Assembly (NCBI RefSeq): GCF_900009265.2
Contig: NZ_LR735014.1
Location: forward strand, 84,420 to 138,963
DNA length: 54,544 nucleotides
Source of the DNA: Planktothrix paucivesiculata PCC 9631
GTDB taxonomy: Bacteria; Cyanobacteriota; Cyanobacteriia; Cyanobacteriales; Microcoleaceae
Direction: 5' to 3'
Under the pieces are notes generated by a model. That model made no database searches, was not told the DNA's origin, and saw only the letters and a list, made by a program, of their open reading frames with translations. Positions 21 through 7,998 of the stretch are shown one piece after another. Positions within the stretch are counted from its first letter, which is position 1; each line of letters starts with the position of its first letter. The position numbers and the translations under genes were made by a program.

Positions 21-1101
21 AGTACCTAAACAAAATTAATTGCATATTCTTGACCTAAATTTTCCAGCACTTTTTTCAGATATTTAATTAAGCTTGACCA
101 ACTGGCATAAGCATCGACTTCAATCCATTCATATTTAATAAATTTCCATAAGATTTCAATTAAATTTAGCTTAGGTGAGTAGGTGGGTAGCCAAAATATT
201 TTTAAATTCTTTTGCTCCCATTCGGATAATTTGGAGAGAAAGCGATCGCTGGTATGAATTGAAGCTTGATCGAGAACAACCACAGTAGGTTTAGTTAGAG
301 TATCACTAAATTTATCTAAAAATTTAATCACCGTTTCACTATCAATTGTTTGGAGGTAAATTTCCGAAAATAATTCATTTCTACAATTCATTAATCCCAG
401 CACATTTATTCTTTTACTTTGAGAACTTTTGAGAATTATTGTGGAATTTTTCTCTTGCCAACCATAAGGAATGTAAGGCGTTAACGAAAATCCACTTTCA
501 TCTAAATATCTTAAATCAATTTCGCCTTTTTTATCTTGTTCTTTCAGCTTCAATAATTCTGGTGTTTTCACCTCTAACTCCCATTCATCAGGGGTTTTGC
601 TTAATCCCCTTTTCATTCTTTGACCGGTCATATTCAACTTTTTTATCATTCTTTTTATGGTTTCTTTACTCACCTTAATTCCCCAGTTTTTATGAATTTT
701 TATAACCACCTTATTGAGATTTTTAGGTTCGGCTTTTACCCACTCTTTTACTTCTGCTATTTGTGATGGGCTTAATTTTGCTTTTCTCCCCCTTCCTTTT
801 TCATTATATAGACCGACAAATCCACTTTTTTCCCATCGAGTTACCCAATTATATAGAGTTCTTCGGCTGATTCTAAATATTGTTATTAGTTGCTCGGGAG
901 AAAACCCCTGATAAATCAGGATTATACATTGGGCTCTATTTCTTACTTGAGGAAATTGGCTTGAGCAACTTATTCTGTTTAAAAGTTTGAACATTTCGAG
1001 ATTCATTTCTTTCAGTAATATCATGGATTTTCGAGATTTAGAGTGTTTTTTTAGTATAAATCATTATTTTCTAGTTATGTAATTAATTTTGTTTAGGTAC
1101 T
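21..1101 (-). mobile_element. IS630-family insertion sequence, complete
   Basis: Complete element of 1081 bp. The two ends are perfect 21-bp inverted repeats (21-41 and 1081-1101, outermost bases agtacctaaac), and pairing continues imperfectly to about 26 bp. A TA dinucleotide flanks both ends (19-20 and 1102-1103), as expected of IS630/Tc1-type insertion at TA. A single full-length transposase fills the inside. The right end lies 3 bp beyond the stop codon of the Uma2-type gene, so that gene was not broken. Confidence 0.93.
26..1024 (-). CDS. IS630-family transposase
   Basis: 332-residue DDE transposase that moves the surrounding element by cut and paste into TA sites. The N-terminal third (about residues 20-140) is a winged-helix/HTH DNA-binding region, with a helix-turn-helix near residues 45-65 (ISRRTLYNWVTRWEKSG). 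The catalytic half shows the three acidic sites: YLDESGF, VVLDQASIHTS and the C-terminal YSPKLNLIEILWK. The reading frame is open from end to end, and many cyanobacterial IS630 copies instead need a frameshift, so this copy may be active. The gene reads inward between the 21-bp terminal repeats, and its stop is only a few bases from the left end of the element. Confidence 0.93.
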   Translation of the reverse strand: MILLKEMNLEMFKLLNRISCSSQFPQVRNRAQCIILIYQGFSPEQLITIFRISRRTLYNWVTRWEKSGFVGLYNEKGRGRKAKLSPSQIAEVKEWVKAEPKNLNKVVIKIHKNWGIKVSKETIKRMIKKLNMTGQRMKRGLSKTPDEWELEVKTPELLKLKEQDKKGEIDLRYLDESGFSLTPYIPYGWQEKNSTIILKSSQSKRINVLGLMNCRNELFSEIYLQTIDSETVIKFLDKFSDTLTKPTVVVLDQASIHTSDRFLSKLSEWEQKNLKIFWLPTYSPKLNLIEILWKFIKYEWIEVDAYASWSSLIKYLKKVLENLGQEYAINFV

Positions 1102-1686: not shown

Positions 1687-1954
1687 TTTGACTCCGTTTT
1701 AAATGATTTATAATAATAAAGTCTAATATTTTCTCGTTTTTTATAACTCCAACATCAAAGGCTTGTTGATGATTGCGCATAAACTGTAGTCTTTGTTCTT
1801 TAATTCTATCTTTTTGGATTACATTAGCTATCATAAAATGAGAAGAAGACCCCAACCCAATGCCACTGGGGTAGTAAGCTGTTGGCTGGGGTTCATCTCT
1901 CGAATAAGACTCTAACCACCAACCCCAAAAAGATCTAAGTCTCGTCTTGTTCAA
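1646..1954 (-). CDS. doubtful small hypothetical protein
   Basis: Open frame of 102 codons that ends inside the Uma2-type gene. I recognise no family. The upstream part (about residues 1-40, rich in Trp, Ser and Pro) does not look like a normal protein N-terminus. An internal Met at about residue 41 (genomic 1834) would give a 62-residue, Lys/Ile-rich protein that looks more natural. It may be a remnant of a larger gene in this decayed island, or chance. The overlap with the real gene and the lack of a clear ribosome-binding site keep confidence low. Confidence 0.22.
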   Translation of the reverse strand: MNKTRLRSFWGWWLESYSRDEPQPTAYYPSGIGLGSSSHFMIANVIQKDRIKEQRLQFMRNHQQAFDVGVIKNEKILDFIIINHLKRSQIDVNHETSLSNLC

Positions 1955-1991
1955 ACCCCGTGCCAGGTATCCGAAAGCCTCGAATTAACAA

Positions 1992-2016
1992 GGATTGTGC
2001 GTCAATTCGTTGATGC
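1992..2016. other. small hairpin with UUCG loop
   Basis: The stretch gcgtcaa-ttcg-ttgatgc forms a 7-bp stem (one G-T pair) closed by a TTCG tetraloop. It lies between the doubtful ORF and the end of the precursor-peptide relic. There is no following T-run, so it is not a convincing terminator. No function is assigned. Confidence 0.35.
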
Positions 2017-2086
2017 GAACCGTGCGCCTTGGCAAGTAGAAAAAGAGTTTTGACATTTTTTGAGGTGAGTGTTAGAATCAAGGGGA

Positions 2087-2285
2087 CTATTCCGCATCGT
2101 CGCCCGCAAAAAATCTACCAAAATTCGCAGGATGCACGCTCCGCATCGTTGGTTGCAAAAGCTTGACACATCATTTTCTCATTGAAGCCTAGGGGTGTCA
2201 GCCCTGTACCATCCACTGAGGAAGTGGTATTAATTTCCCGTTGTACGGGTGCGGTTTGTTGGGGTTTGATGTTTTTCTTTGTCAT
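2087..2285 (-). pseudogene. cyanobactin precursor peptide (PatE/AcyE type), frameshifted relic
   Basis: The start is ATG 2285, preceded by GGAG nine bases upstream. The leader MTKKNIKPQQTAPVQR carries the KKNxxPxxxxPVxR pattern of cyanobactin precursor leaders, the part recognised by the maturation enzymes. The linker DGTGLTP follows, then a core-like stretch ending in FATNDAE (compare the FAGDDAE follower of anacyclamide-type precursors), then RASCEFW and a TAG stop at 2115-2117. One base out of frame directly after that stop, at 2087-2110, the minus strand reads FAGDDAE followed by TAG. The simplest reading is a precursor with two core cassettes whose last cassette has been lost to a stop plus a one-base shift. 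The currently translated product would be 56 residues (2115-2285). Family recall is from memory; the leader and follower are seen directly. Confidence 0.75.
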
Positions 2286-2467: not shown

Positions 2468-2680
2468 ATGCCCAAAAAAGTTGGAGAATTGAAACGAATG
2501 TTACAGAAAGCAGGATTTACACTCTTACCTAAACGGGGAAAAGGTAGTCATTCTTACTGGATTCATCCACTTTTATCAAAACCTATCGTTCTCTCCGGTA
2601 AAGACAGCAATGATGCGAAAATCTATCAGGAAAAAGATATAATGGCAAGCATAAAAGAACTAGAACAAGGAGATGAATAA
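2468..2680 (+). CDS. hicA: HicA-family toxin (mRNA interferase)
   Basis: 70-residue HicA/YcfA-type toxin, a small double-stranded-RNA-binding-fold protein that cleaves mRNA when not bound by HicB. The family marks are visible: the N-terminal K-x-GELKRMLQKAGF, the basic run PKRGKGSHSYWIHP with the catalytic His (about residue 28), and the acid-rich tail. The stop codon overlaps the start of hicB by one base, the usual toxin-first hicAB order. The pair lies between two cyanobactin precursor relics of opposite orientation, which suggests it was inserted there. Confidence 0.88.
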   Translation: MPKKVGELKRMLQKAGFTLLPKRGKGSHSYWIHPLLSKPIVLSGKDSNDAKIYQEKDIMASIKELEQGDE

Positions 2681-2901
2681 TGAATGATCGAATAATGAAA
2701 TATAGTATTTTGATTCAGTGGTCTGAAGAAGATCAAGCTTATATTGCTAGTTTGCCTGAGTGGGGACAATATGCGCGGACTCACGGCGAAACCTATGAAG
2801 AAACACTAAAAAATGCGAAGGAAGTTTTAGAAGATTTAGTGTATGGTTATGAGAAAATAGGAAGATCTTTGCCAGAACCAAAGACATTACAGGTCGCTTG
2901 A
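2680..2901 (+). CDS. hicB: HicB-family antitoxin
   Basis: 73-residue HicB antitoxin with the partial RNase-H-like fold: KYSILIQWSEEDQAYIASLPEW at the N-terminus and the helix GETYEETLKNAKEVLEDLVYGY. It neutralises HicA and normally autoregulates the operon, although this short form has no visible C-terminal DNA-binding domain. The ATG at 2680 overlaps the hicA stop (TAATG). A second ATG at 2695 would start at MKYSIL, the more usual family N-terminus. Its 3' end lies about 35 bp from the point where the second precursor relic stops resembling a cyanobactin leader. Confidence 0.87.
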   Translation: MNDRIMKYSILIQWSEEDQAYIASLPEWGQYARTHGETYEETLKNAKEVLEDLVYGYEKIGRSLPEPKTLQVA

Positions 2902-2935
2902 AAAGGCTGGATCTGATCAATTTGCAATCTACCCA

Positions 2936-2975
2936 TAATAGCGGCTTGTAGGGGTTTGAGGTTTTTCTTAGTCAT
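2936..2975 (-). pseudogene. second cyanobactin precursor leader, truncated remnant
   Basis: The minus strand from ATG 2975 reads MTKKNLKPLQAA and then departs from the family pattern at about 2940 (the expected PVQR is replaced by IMGRLQ). The 5' leader region, with ggagacacaaac just before the ATG, matches the region before the first precursor relic. The open frame continues through hicB antisense to about 2847, but that part shows no core or follower sequence. This looks like a second tandem precursor gene that lost its core when the hicAB segment arrived. Confidence 0.68.
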
Positions 2976-3163
2976 GGTTGTTTGTGTCTCCAGATTAGTT
3001 GAAGTTTGACTGACTGGATGATAATCTGATGCTATGCTGGTGGTTGAGTCTTTGTAATGATTATTAACAATGATTGTGAGCAAATAGGTAAAGTTTCCCC
3101 ATAAGATAATGCTGGCGAGAGCTTCTAATGTAAACTAAAATTATTTGCTCGATAACTATAACC

Positions 3164-3838
3164 ATGCCTGATTTAATTACTATTCCTGGAATACCTGAAC
3201 TTTGGACTCATACTAAAGGAGATTCTCGGATTAAAATTGCTATTCTTGACGGTGCGGCAGACTTAGAACGTGCTTGCTTTAAAGGTGCAAAGATTACTCA
3301 ATTTAAACCCTATTGGTCAGAAGATATTGAACTCAATGATGAGTATTATCATTATCTGAAATTATCTACAGACTTTAACCAAAAACAAAAAGCTAAAAAA
3401 GAAGACCCCGACTACGATAAAGACGAAGCAAAAAAAGAAAGAGAAGCCTTTTTTAAAGATTTCCCTAAAGCCATTCAGAGACGGATTGAATTATCTAGTC
3501 ATGCGACCCATATTGCTAGTACCATTTTAGGACAACATGGCTCTCCTGTTGCTGGTATCGCTCCTAATTGTACAGCGATTAATATTCCGATTTCCTTCGC
3601 TGGAGATTTTTATTTCCTTTGTAAATCTTACCCATGCTATTAACGAAGCCTTAAAAGCTGAGGTCAATATTATTCATATTGCTGCTTGTCATCCTACTCA
3701 GTCAGGAATGGCTCAAGAAATCTTTGCCCATGCTGTGAAACAATGCCAAGATAGTAATATTTTAATTGTGGCTCCGGGTGGTAACGATAAAGGCGAATGT
3801 TGGTGTATTCCTTCGATTTTACCCGATGTTTTAACAAT
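3164..3838 (+). pseudogene. patA: PatA fragment 1 (Asp and His part of the protease domain)
   Basis: The first open piece is 3164-3643 (159 residues), with the catalytic Asp and His. After the T-run at 3607-3611 the true frame moves by one base, and the continuation FVNLTHAINEALKAEVNIIH to DVLT lies in the frame ending at 3860. The last family residues stop at the 7-bp target duplication 3832-3838. There is a charged insert rich in Lys, Asp and Glu at about residues 70-100. The ATG at 3164 is the natural start. Confidence 0.8.
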
Positions 3839-3975
3839 ACGTGAGTTCGATGGAGTTTGATCGCCACACCCTTCGGCTGACGCTCACGGCGAAGCCACAA
3901 GCTGTAAGTTCTCAGGCGGGAAGTGAAATTAGCTTGTCAGTTTTAATGTTTATTTAATGCGCGGGAAATTTGAGT

Positions 3976-4875
3976 TTATTCAAAATGATAAACTGGTTGT
4001 TTAATCTCATACAATGATGGCTTTTCAGGTTGATAAGTATAAGCAATCATTCCGGCTACTAAATTCACCATAAAATTACCTACACTTCGATGTCTTGTAT
4101 GTTCAATTTGGCATAAGTTTTTCAGTTGATCATTCACTGATTCTATTATACCTCTTTTTCTTAATTTCATTTTATCTGACCACAACATTAGTTTATTTTT
4201 CATGTTTTTCTTCAGCCTAGTTATCAGTTGTAAACCTTTTTCATGTAATTGCTTAAATAATTTTTCGGAAATATATCCCTTGTCTCCAAAAATTTTTCCC
4301 ACAATTCCTTCTGTTAATTCTGGGACTACTTTTCGGTCATCAACATTAGCAGGTGTGACTTGAAAATTTAAAATTTCCCCATAGTCGTTGATGATTAAAT
4401 GTAACTTAAATCCAAAATAAAAGCCAATTGAACTTTTCCCCCATTCCGCTAGTCCAGCAAAGACTTTATGGCTATTTGCTCGATTTTCATGACAGACCTT
4501 TAAGGCGGTCGAATCGATAAAACTTGTTCCAGTTACCTCGCCTTTACAACAATATTCAAAGTAACAACATAGTGCTAATAAAGCATAAGACATTAACTCA
4601 ACAAAACGATTATAACTGACTAAGTTAGGCATAGCTTTTGACCAATATGCCATTACTTGTAATCGGTAAAAGTCTTTAAATGTTCGGTAACGTGAACCAT
4701 GAAATCCGATCAATATTGTCATTATTTCACTTAAAGTCAAGCGGGTTTTGGGTCGGCTTTGACCCACCACTTCTGGTAACAACATTTGTGCCAATAAGGG
4801 TTCAAATACTTGACAAAAGTCATCCAGGTCACAAAAAACTTTTGTTATGTCTAAGTGTGATGCTCTGTGATCCAT
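3976..4875 (-). CDS. IS982-family transposase
   Basis: 299-residue DDE transposase of the IS982 family. It has the typical N-terminus (DLDDFCQVFEPLL, then LSEIMTILIGFHGSRYRTFKDFY) and the acidic sites TSFIDSTALKVC, KIFGDKGYIS and KRGIIESVNDQLKN. The frame is uninterrupted, so the protein should be made. It is encoded opposite to the PatA gene it interrupts. Confidence 0.92.
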   Translation of the reverse strand: MDHRASHLDITKVFCDLDDFCQVFEPLLAQMLLPEVVGQSRPKTRLTLSEIMTILIGFHGSRYRTFKDFYRLQVMAYWSKAMPNLVSYNRFVELMSYALLALCCYFEYCCKGEVTGTSFIDSTALKVCHENRANSHKVFAGLAEWGKSSIGFYFGFKLHLIINDYGEILNFQVTPANVDDRKVVPELTEGIVGKIFGDKGYISEKLFKQLHEKGLQLITRLKKNMKNKLMLWSDKMKLRKRGIIESVNDQLKNLCQIEHTRHRSVGNFMVNLVAGMIAYTYQPEKPSLYEIKQPVYHFE

Positions 4876-4947
4876 AAAAGCCTCCTTAATTGTCTAATAT
4901 TTGCTGGTTACATCTCTATTTTCCCACGCTTACTGATTAGATCATAT

Positions 4948-5079
4948 GCCCAATAGTCGTCTGTTTTGTCGCGATCGCCTGCCCAGTAGTCGTCTGTTTT
5001 ATCGCGATCGCTTGCCCAGTAGTCGTCTGTTTTATCGCGATCGCCTGCTCAATAGTCGTCTGTTTTATCGCGATCGCAC
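4948..5079. repeat. four tandem 33-bp repeats, each with a HIP1 site
   Basis: Units at 4948-4980, 4981-5013, 5014-5046 and 5047-5079 differ at only a few positions. Each has the form gcccagtagtcgtctg, then tttta/g, then tcgcgatcgc plus two bases. The HIP1 octamer (gcgatcgc) is at the same place in every unit. The last unit runs into the right terminal repeat of the insertion. There are no spacers, so this is not a CRISPR array. Confidence 0.9.
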
Positions 5080-5100
5080 TCCATCGAACTCACGTTAACA

Positions 5101-6447
5101 ATGGGTGCAATGCGTGATGATGGACAACCTTTTAAATTTAGTAATTATGGTGGTGACTATCAACAAAAAGGGGTAATGGCTAACGGTGAAAATATCTTAG
5201 GAGCCGAACCCGGGACGGATATTCCGATTCGTGAAAAAGGGACAAGTTGTGCCGCTCCTATTATTACTGGAATTTCGGCTTTATTAATGAGTATGCAGTT
5301 ACAAAGAGGGGAAAAACCTAATGCTGAAACCGTCCGTCAAGCTATTTTAAAAAGTGCTATTCCCTGCGACCCTAAAGAAGTAGAAGAACCAGAACGCTGT
5401 TTATTAGGAAAACTAAATATTCCTGGGGCTTACAACTTATTAACAGGAGAACTATTAACAACAGTTGAAATTTCTAAAATTAGATCATCAGAAATTAATA
5501 TTCCGGTTAATACTGTTACTTCTATTAAGAGAATAGAAAACACCATTAACAGCCCATTACTAACTTTACGTGATGTCGTTACTCCTAGCAGTTCTTCAGC
5601 CGTAGCGGTGGCTAATATTACCACGAGTCAACCCATTAATGGTATTACCGCTAGTGCAGCTTCTAAACTGGTTTATGTTTTAGGAACCATTGGTTATGAC
5701 TTCGGGAGTAAAGCCCGAAGGGACAGTTTTAAACAATTAATGCCCGCCGTAGAAATTGATGGTACAACGATTCCTGCTAATCCTTATGATGCTTCTCAAA
5801 TAGTTAATTATTTAGCCGAAAATCCCTCAGAAAGTAAATCTTTAATTTGGACAATTAACCAAGAATTTAACCCAGTTTATGCCCTGGAAGTTAAAGGCGG
5901 ATTTGCGGCTGATGTTTATGAAATGTTAAACTTAATGTTAGCTGGACAAATTGAACCAGAAAGCAGTGATGATTATATTGAAAGAGTGAGTATTCCTGGT
6001 CAAATTACCGATAAAACAATTACCCTATTTTCTGGTCAAGAAGTTCCCGTAATTACGATTAATAATATTAGAGGAATGTACGCTTGGAAAGTCAACGGTT
6101 TAGTGGATGCTGCTTTACAAACCCTTTCTGAAGAACTAGCCGACGCAGAGGAAATCAGAATGCGAAAATCCCTGAGTAGTTTCCTGAAACGAGTTTATTT
6201 TGATTTACAAAACTTAGGGAAAACTTCTAAAGATCGGGCTTTGAATTTTGCCGCAACTAACGCTTTTCAAGCCGCTTCTAGTTTTGCCCAAGCTGTTTCT
6301 ACCGGGATGGAATTAGATACAATTGAAATTGAAAAAAGTCCTTTCTGTCGGATTAATAGTGATTGTTGGGACGTGAAATTAAAGTTTTTTGATCCTGAAC
6401 GGGGTTTGAGAGCCAAAAAGGTTTATCTTTGGTTCTTCAGTATCTAG
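5101..6447 (+). pseudogene. patA: PatA fragment 2 (catalytic Ser and C-terminal domain)
   Basis: 448-codon open frame between the two insertions. True PatA sequence is 5103-6430. It begins in the strand before the active site (MGAMRDDGQPFKFSNYGG), carries the serine motif GTSCAAP, then the PatA/PatG C-terminal domain (LVYVLGTIGYDFGSKARRD, NPVYALEVKGGFAADVYE, NNIRGMYAWKVNGLVDAAL). The last residues, WFFSI, come from the ISL3 end and not from PatA. The remaining C-terminus (about 23 residues) lies beyond the second IS at 7875-7945. Translation would need an internal start, so this is probably not functional. Confidence 0.8.
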
Positions 6448-7866
6448 TATGCTAAAATCATAGTTAATAAAATCAATAAAGACAAAAAATATATCTGGCG
6501 ATGGCTGAAAATCTTTTTCCGGTTGACAGTTAAGCGATATGTGGTGTTAACTAAAATCAGAAAAAGAGTAAATTCAGGGTAAAGGGGTAACAATGGCTTC
6601 AAACAGGGAAATTAAAATGCTCACAGAACTTCTGGGGCTAGAAGGAGTAAAAGTGGGAACACGCCATCAACATAAAGGGATTGGAATAATTTTAGAGATA
6701 GAGACAATCCATCAGGAAAGTATCTGTCCTCGTTGTGGGGAAAAAAGCCATAAATTACATCAAAATCATCGATATCTAATTAAAGATTTACCTTGGGGAG
6801 AATCTCCAGTATTTTTGGAAATAAATAGACGACAGTTCAAATGTAAGAAATGTAAAAAGCCATTTAGTGAGGATTTAGATTTTGTCGGAAAAAGAAGGAC
6901 TTATACAAAAAGATTGGCTGATAGAATCCTACAAGAAGTTTTAGAAAAGGATATAAACAGTGTGGCAAAAAAAGGGTTAGTCACAACAGAAGAAATAGAA
7001 AGGATGTTAAAAGACGCATCATCAGAATTGGCGAATTTTAAACCCACCCATTTAAAAAGGCTAGGAATTGATGAAATAGCATTGATTAAAGGAAAAGGAA
7101 ATTATTGTGCAGTTTTAATAGATTTAGAGAAGTCGGAATTAATTGCCATTCTCGAAAAAAGAACACAAGAAGAAATCAAAAAAGTGTTGATGGGGTGGGG
7201 AAGAGAAGTGTTAGAAAAGATAGAAGAAGTCAGCATAGATCTGTGGAAAGGATACAAAAGTTTAGTCTTAGAAATCATGCCAAATGCTCAAGTTGTAGCG
7301 GATAGATTTCATGTGATGGTACAAATCAATCAGGAGTTAGATTGGCAAAGAAAACAAGAAAGGCGGAAGGAAGAAAATTTGCTAAAAACAGCAAAGTCCG
7401 AATCGGAAAAAGCCAATTCTGAAAAAGTTTTAGCCGGATTGAAGAAGAGTAAATACGCTCTCTTGAAGAATGAAAAAGATTTGAATGAACAACAAAGCCG
7501 GAAACTAGCGGAAGTGAAAGAGGTTTCTCCTACCCTAAAAAGTATGCAGGAATTCAAAGAAAAAATTCGTCAAATTTTTGAGGAAAAAAATGATTGGTTA
7601 GGGGGATTATGGCAATTGGGGATGTGGTTAGATGAAGCTAAAAAGTATTTCCCGAAAAGTCAAAAGACAATTATTCGATGGCTAGATGAAATTATTGCGT
7701 ACTTTGATCATAGAACAACCAGTGGAGTAGTGGAGGGAATTAATAACAAGCTGAAACTGATTAAACGTTCGGCTTATTGATTCAGAAATTTTAAAAACTT
7801 TCAAGCAAGATGTTTACTTAATTGGCATTTTAACTAAATTTTTAGCATACTAGATACTGAAGAACC
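6431..7866 (+). mobile_element. ISL3-family insertion sequence with 8-bp target duplication
   Basis: 1436-bp element. The ends are near-perfect inverted repeats beginning ggttcttcagtatctagtat (about 27 bp, at 6431 and ending at 7866). The 8-bp direct repeat ttatcttt flanks it (6423-6430 and 7867-7874), the size expected for ISL3. Precise removal rejoins PatA codons so that KVYLFTIDV is read. The orientation of the transposase is the same as the interrupted gene. Confidence 0.92.
6593..7780 (+). CDS. ISL3-family transposase, truncated by a nonsense codon
   Basis: 395-residue ISL3 transposase. It starts with the zinc-binding region (CPRCGEKSH near residue 44, CKKCKKPF near 85), followed by the DDE domain with LGIDEIALIKGKGNY, SIDLWKGYKSL, VVADRFHV and the C-terminal Glu in TTSGVVEGINNKLKLIKRSAY. 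The frame stops there at TGA (7778-7780). The next codons, in frame to TAA at 7835-7837, read FRNFKNFQARCLLNWHFN, the usual family ending after Gly. A single GGA to TGA change therefore removes about 19 residues, and this copy may be inactive. Confidence 0.88.
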   Translation: MASNREIKMLTELLGLEGVKVGTRHQHKGIGIILEIETIHQESICPRCGEKSHKLHQNHRYLIKDLPWGESPVFLEINRRQFKCKKCKKPFSEDLDFVGKRRTYTKRLADRILQEVLEKDINSVAKKGLVTTEEIERMLKDASSELANFKPTHLKRLGIDEIALIKGKGNYCAVLIDLEKSELIAILEKRTQEEIKKVLMGWGREVLEKIEEVSIDLWKGYKSLVLEIMPNAQVVADRFHVMVQINQELDWQRKQERRKEENLLKTAKSESEKANSEKVLAGLKKSKYALLKNEKDLNEQQSRKLAEVKEVSPTLKSMQEFKEKIRQIFEEKNDWLGGLWQLGMWLDEAKKYFPKSQKTIIRWLDEIIAYFDHRTTSGVVEGINNKLKLIKRSAY

Positions 7867-7998
7867 TTATCTTTTTACCATTGATGTGAGTTATATGATT
7901 CCAGTTACGTTAGGGCAAGTTCGTTCTTGGTCTGTACCCAAATAGATATGGGTCACTATTATATCTAACTGATGCGGGTTGGGTGTTGACGATTAAGT

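Follow-up and report, generated by a model that had tools for sequence, protein, structure and literature searches.

A decayed pagE-type cyanobactin precursor gene with two follower sequences in different frames in Planktothrix paucivesiculata PCC 9631

Introduction

Near one end of a 54,544-nucleotide stretch of the genome of the freshwater cyanobacterium Planktothrix paucivesiculata PCC 9631 (referred to here as the window; contig C143:84420-138963, in an assembly of 6.15 Mb in 184 contigs), a short minus-strand gene resembles a cyanobactin precursor but carries two follower-like sequences in different reading frames. This raises the question of how a precursor gene came to have two followers, and whether it is the remnant of a gene that once encoded two core peptides. 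During cyanobactin maturation, cleavage ahead of the core is the work of the A protease, and the G protease both takes off the follower and performs the ring closure (PMC4663559); where a precursor has more than one core, the same review describes each as being flanked by both recognition sequences. An initial annotation, made from the sequence alone, interpreted the gene as a fossil precursor in which a second cassette had been thrown out of frame by a small lesion, perhaps in a run of A residues. Here we describe the gene, the cluster around it and its relatives, and weigh that interpretation against others.

Results

A PirE/PagE-type precursor gene with an altered end

The minus strand from 2285 to 2087 encodes a cyanobactin precursor of the prenylagaramide/piricyclamide kind, and we regard 2087..2285 as a pagE/pirE-type precursor remnant extending from the ATG to the canonical gene end. 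Translation from the ATG at 2285 gives MTKKNIKPQQTAPVQREINTTSSVDGTGLTPLGFNEKMMCQAFATNDAERASCEFW and a stop codon, which divides into the leader MTKKNIKPQQTAPVQREINTTSSVDGTGLTP (2193..2285), including the GLTP site before the core, a core region LGFNEKMMCQA (2160..2192), a first follower FATNDAE in the leader frame (2139..2159), and a tail RASCEFW with its stop (2115..2138), the frame-0 TAG lying at 2117-2115. Behind this stop, FAGDDAE and a TAG occupy 2110-2087 in the +1 frame relative to the leader. The leader, the FATNDAE follower and the FAGDDAE sequence one base out of frame behind a TAG are thus as the initial annotation described them, and the A-run at 2108-2113 is present, with six A residues. 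The residues DGTGLTP, which it had termed a linker, are also there, but the label does not apply, as GTGLTP is the usual leader end in Planktothrix pagE copies.

Assignment to the family is clear from profile matches along the whole length of the product. The open reading frame matches TIGR04446 (anacyclamide/piricyclamide precursor) with 64 bits (E=1.1e-17, cut-off 35; residues 1-49 on model positions 1-51) and PF19158 with 66 bits (E=3.9e-18, cut-off 25), in agreement with the earlier identification as a cyanobactin precursor. Its C-terminus is not an in-frame FAGDDAE or near variant, but an in-frame FATNDAE with seven further residues; we therefore classify the gene as a PirE/PagE member by profile but a decayed copy. 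The leader DNA is 87.7-94.2% identical to other Planktothrix pagE leaders (the 14 best matches), and differs from the copy at L038:16642 by four synonymous and three nonsynonymous codons among 31. The 3' flank (1838..2089, minus strand) is homologous to that of relatives, with 91% identity over 255 bases to L039:11366-11619 and 88% over 250 bases to L040:12261-12503. Between these two conserved parts, positions 2112-2190 have no DNA match in the nine loci compared at E 1e-3.

Both follower sequences are real

The second follower is identical to a natural Planktothrix follower at 21/21 bases and has the family 3' flank directly behind it, and we therefore take FAGDDAE-TAG as the canonical gene end. 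For the first follower, the nearest among ten natural variants agrees at 17/21 bases. A chance test covering 339,970 positions (both strands of the window and of seven other loci) returned no unrelated site at 17/21 or above; the only other sites at that level were two exact followers, namely the second follower itself and one in locus L096, and the nearest misses were two sites at 16 and eight at 15. In view of these matches and the lack of any unrelated site at 17, both followers are real, and we take the first to have drifted from FAGDDAE.

The two followers start 126 and 175 nt from the ATG, a spacing of 49 nt that is 1 modulo 3. The 28 nt ahead of each follower agree at only 10/28 positions, so the follower unit has not recently been copied whole, and a simple tandem duplication of a complete core-follower cassette is rejected on the same evidence. 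An old duplication with diverged cores could still be accommodated. No GLTP-like (RSII-like) site is present in any frame between the followers, ahead of the putative second core. The arrangement thus differs from that of a multi-cassette precursor, in which every core is bracketed by an RSII and an RSIII of its own, all in a single frame; here the followers are in different frames.

The A-run does not account for this arrangement by itself. In the sense of the gene, the TAG at 2117-2115 lies 5' of the run, and a change in run length alone would leave that stop in front of FAGDDAE; a slip in the run is therefore rejected as the sole lesion.

The surrounding pag cluster is dead

DNA comparison shows that the window locus has the same order and orientation as the pag loci of three other genomes (G045, G046 and G051), with a Uma2 gene (1102-1749), the precursor region (1838-2305), a small two-gene pair (2460-2903) and a divergent PagG-type protease region (to 7945). 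The small pair itself is matched in L038 of G045 (92% DNA identity) and in L040 of G051, and not in L039 of G046. It comprises two small overlapping open reading frames at 2468-2901 (plus strand) without an NCBIfam match of weight, presumably resembling a HicA/HicB pair, and is placed between the precursor gene and a second precursor remnant described below. An IS630-like transposase gene (26-1024, minus strand) directly adjoins the Uma2 gene of the syntenic block; in G046 the A-type protease is located on that side.

A frame change and two insertion sequences divide the PagG-type subtilisin-like macrocyclase gene into four pieces. Its N-terminal part (3164..3838, plus strand; TIGR03895) changes frame between 3607 and 3609, and against the L039 protease of 690 aa its two frames give 91% identity (148 aa) and 97% identity (77 aa); its best PDB matches are 4h6x and 4aks. 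The first insertion sequence (3839..5094) was delimited by Pfam and DNA comparison, encodes a DDE_Tnp_1_3 transposase at 3976-4875 on the minus strand, and is flanked by 8-bp repeats, with TTAACAAT at both 3831-3838 and 5095-5102. Beside this transposase, a short repeated coding-like stretch (SRLFYRDRLP repeats) is seen at 4946-5098 on the plus strand. The middle and C-terminal portion of the protease follows at 5095..6430 (plus strand), with PatG_D and PatG_C domains in Pfam, 613.8 bits to TIGR03895, 90% identity over 452 aa to the L039 protease and PDB matches to 4uvq and 4h6x; its reading frame continues into the next insertion to 6447. That insertion, an ISL3-family element (6431..7866; transposase ORF 6593-7780), was likewise identified by Pfam and DNA comparison and is flanked by 8-bp repeats, TTATCTTT being present at 6423-6430 and 7867-7874. 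Finally, a cut-off C-terminal end lies at 7867..7942 (plus strand), with 81% identity over 31 aa for 7850-7942 and a match to TIGR03895 positions 583-606. The best PDB chains for the protease pieces are named thiazoline oxidase/subtilisin-like protease, which we take to be the PatG/PagG type.

Other components of a functional pag cluster were sought and not found in the locus. The A-type protease of G046, used as a query against the window and L045, picks up the G remnant and nothing else, and the only two other TIGR03895 matches above cut-off in the genome are both on contig C128. The PagF prenyltransferase of L039 has no tblastn match in the window or L045, and the two genome-wide matches to the prenyltransferase family TIGR04445 are again both in the C128 cluster. 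PagF is reported to be absent from some producing strains (PMC9366434). Pancrace et al. (2017) list PCC 9631 (184 scaffolds, 6.07 Mb, MiSeq sequencing at about 150-fold) with one cyanobactin cluster that is pat-like and a pag cluster that is incomplete, 'partGEF' (PMC5259702); the F gene of that listing was not recovered here, and on this point our analysis and theirs disagree. The window locus is a Planktothrix pag locus, and it is dead; the fossil status proposed for the precursor is well supported by this context of a broken PagG-type gene and cluster partners that were not found.

A second precursor remnant is present at 2850..2975 on the minus strand. It begins with a pagE-like MTKKNLKP leader start (MTKKNLKPLQAA), has no follower, and scores below cut-off with both profiles (TIGR04446, 13.9 bits against 35; PF19158, 18.9 bits against 25). 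The 5' region ahead of this leader start is shared with the first precursor of relatives, which begins MIKKNIRPQQ, and the DNA matches L038, L039 and L040 over 2946-3836, and L042 over 2941-3836. The remnant has the look of a recombinant that was cut off after about 12 codons.

Contig C128 holds a second cyanobactin cluster. Two proteases of the PatA/PatG family score above cut-off there, and one shares 66% identity with the A-type protease at the G046 locus; the two prenyltransferases mentioned above also lie in this cluster. Its precursor (L043:12737, plus strand) has three identical GVDAS-MCPCVC-SYDG cassettes, all in one frame, and its leader and SYDG followers differ from those of pagE.

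Relatives have at most one follower for each precursor gene

In five other Planktothrix genomes (G045, G046, G049, G051 and G052) the protease is encoded by a single open frame (693-700 aa) that shares 91-93% identity with the window's long piece; G052 has further partial protease matches on two small contigs. Precursor copies in relatives are often several and in tandem. TIGR04446 matches number 13 in G045, four in G046, three in G051, four in G052 and one in G049, and four of the nine other genomes of the genus have none.

We surveyed PirE-type genes in a selection of loci, which does not take in every TIGR04446-type match, starting from 68 open reading frames that have a leader-like pattern and are distinct in their first 140 bases, the window's own included. 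A filter retained 59 and dropped nine, which by eye comprise two single-follower genes (FAGGDAE or FAGDDAV), four pag/pir-type genes without a recognised follower, and three precursors of other types (L043 and two in L065). Out-of-frame followers were sought within 330 bases or to the end of the locus. At least L046:3587 and the remnant at 2975 in the window itself escaped the leader pattern, and contig-end copies without a leader start were left out. Among the 64 other distinct PirE-type genes, 55 (53 plus the two recovered by eye) have one in-frame terminal follower, five have a follower only out of frame (L038:14706, L038:17624, L008:2302, L087:1501 and L091:2380), four have none recognised, and none has two by the patterns used. 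Core frameshifts thus seem to recur in the PirE/PagE family. The initial annotation had proposed that its model would be wrong if relatives kept the same short frame under purifying selection and no homologue had FAGDDAE in frame, and on this the outcome is mixed: 55 of the 64 relatives do have an in-frame follower of the FAGDDAE type, but it is their sole and terminal one. Its remark that cysteine in the core would be unusual does not hold, as several intact-frame relatives have Cys before the follower (e.g. ASTECDILTRQCTP and SCTYCDIETRMCTP), and piricyclamide precursors with two Cys have been published (PMC3428304).

The positional counterpart of the window gene is L040:12114, in another Planktothrix species (G051), with 75% identity over 103 nt upstream, 89% in the leader and 88% in the 3' flank. 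It is a single-cassette gene, and its one follower is at an offset of 126, the same as that of the window's first follower. Better matches are found elsewhere for the leader (L038, 94%) and for the 3' flank (L039, 91%). A chimera with its 5' part from the first copy and its 3' part from the last copy of an array is not supported, in that 2306-2470 matches the region upstream of L040:12114 and the 3' flank also resembles that copy. A genome contig scan led to one locus, in P. rubescens PCC 7821, and at L039:11345 of this strain an orphan follower with its 3' flank has no leader seen in its frame; this flank is the closest to that of the window.

In the searches made, the window's precursor allele was found in one genome only, its own; drift and selection are therefore not separable for it. 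A donor search with 2105-2200 against ten genomes of the genus returned the site itself and weak matches (best other E=0.02). When up to three mismatches are allowed, the window's own genome contains a single site for a 33-base pattern centred on the second follower region.

Discussion

The likely explanation for this locus is that it holds an ordinary decayed pagE gene to which recombination has probably added a second follower. The ancestor would have been a precursor of the prenylagaramide/planktocyclin group (TIGR04446), with a leader, a GLTP cleavage site, one hypervariable core and a FAGDDAE follower. With the PagG-type gene in four pieces and its partners not found outside the C128 cluster, the pag locus is dead, and the precursor would consequently have been free to drift. 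Recombination within or between precursor copies most likely added another core end, with its follower, after the first follower; the join would not have been a multiple of three, leaving the canonical end out of frame, and the first follower may then have drifted to FATNDAE after the join and the death of the cluster. No product would be expected. This explanation is supported by the 64-bit family match, the two real followers, the synteny with three other pag loci, the broken protease, and the tandem and decayed copies in relatives. Against it, no stop interrupts the reading frame between the leader and the first follower, and this frame scores above the family cut-off, so that the precursor ORF by itself is not broken, and the leader is little changed. 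Further points on that side are that the allele was found in one genome only, that the donor searches in the pag loci and in ten genomes of the genus gave nothing convincing, that L040:12114 is the best match only upstream, and that an F gene is listed for the partial pag cluster of PCC 9631.

The initial annotation was right about a precursor in a decayed cluster and about two followers in two frames; its central proposal, that a single small indel broke a gene with two complete core cassettes, we consider unlikely. It would explain why two proper followers lie 49 nt from each other, separated by a stretch of peptide size, and multi-cassette precursors do occur in other cyanobactin types, one with three repeats being present in this very genome. 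That 49-nt spacing, the 10/28 agreement ahead of the followers, the missing GLTP-like site and the flanking of every core on both sides in known multi-core precursors all argue against such an ancestor, as do the absence of two followers from 64 PirE-type relatives, the single cassette of the positional counterpart, and the TAG that precedes the A-run. A further interpretation is that single-core PirE/PagE genes occasionally gain a second follower by copy-to-copy recombination as a short-lived intermediate toward a multi-cassette gene, here frozen one base out of frame in a dead cluster; we view this as rather doubtful.

It is quite improbable that the gene is a working single-core precursor, with LGFNEKMMCQA as core, FATNDAE as follower and a harmless seven-residue tail, on which the C128 protease pair acts in trans. 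The open frame and little-changed leader are compatible with this, as are the two C128 proteases and the similarity of one of them to an A-type pag protease, but FATNDAE does not stand at the end of the product, the G protease of the pag locus is broken, the precursor on C128 differs in its leader and carries SYDG followers, and the two of seven follower residues that have changed are the G-D pair, which by eye is kept in 52 of the 55 relatives with a single terminal follower. If FATNDAE were instead a chance resemblance in a long core, the gene would be a plain single-cassette copy frameshifted in its core; the hypervariability of cores and the single-cassette copies whose follower is out of frame (5/64) would fit this, but the 17/21 match, unequalled by any unrelated site among the 339,970 positions, is in frame and at an offset present in other copies, which makes coincidence very improbable indeed. 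Least credible is recoding, by which a +1 ribosome shift near TGG-TAG would reach FAGDDAE and yield a bipartite precursor: FAGDDAE does lie in the +1 frame just behind the stop, but none of the 64 relatives has this arrangement, and we know of no recognised slippery +1 site near TGG-TAG.

The preferred explanation, a decayed pagE with a second follower joined on, is best seen beside known systems. The window gene shares with the PagE genes of Planktothrix agardhii and P. rubescens the leader, the GLTP site, the 3' flank and a place between the PagG-type protease and the Uma2 gene, and in those relatives copies lie in tandem. The relatives have at most one follower, at the gene end, whereas the window gene has a drifted first follower and a canonical second one out of frame, with enzymes that are broken or were not found. 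Multi-cassette precursors of the patellamide, trunkamide and aeruginosamide types also have more than one follower motif per gene, but each of their cores has its own N- and C-terminal recognition sites, unlike in the window gene (PMC4663559). A parallel in decay is the inactive pir cluster of Microcystis aeruginosa NIES-843, with insertion sequences in pirA and a frameshift in pirG, and with frameshifted precursors in other strains (PMC3428304); it shares with the window a protease gene broken by insertion sequences and a frameshift in a protease gene, and the section of that paper on this cluster mentions no precursor with a second follower. Planktothrix strains are reported to have from 1 to 12 pagE copies, some being without an active pagE (PMC9366434), and in one of four strains pag genes were accompanied by no detected product (PMC6784222).

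Cluster decay, and a partial pag cluster in PCC 9631, are thus already in print, and the double follower itself is a new example. We found no description of a double follower in the portions of the literature searched, and the word FAGDDAE appears in none of the papers among the matches listed, which is not proof of its absence from print. No concept is changed by these observations, and the locus amounts to a mild curiosity, not to a new system. It does add a documented case of the death of a ring-peptide cluster, in which the macrocyclase gene has taken up insertion sequences, few precursor copies are left, other enzymes were not found and the precursor is drifting, and its double follower is a small hint as to how multi-core precursors could arise from tandem single-core genes.
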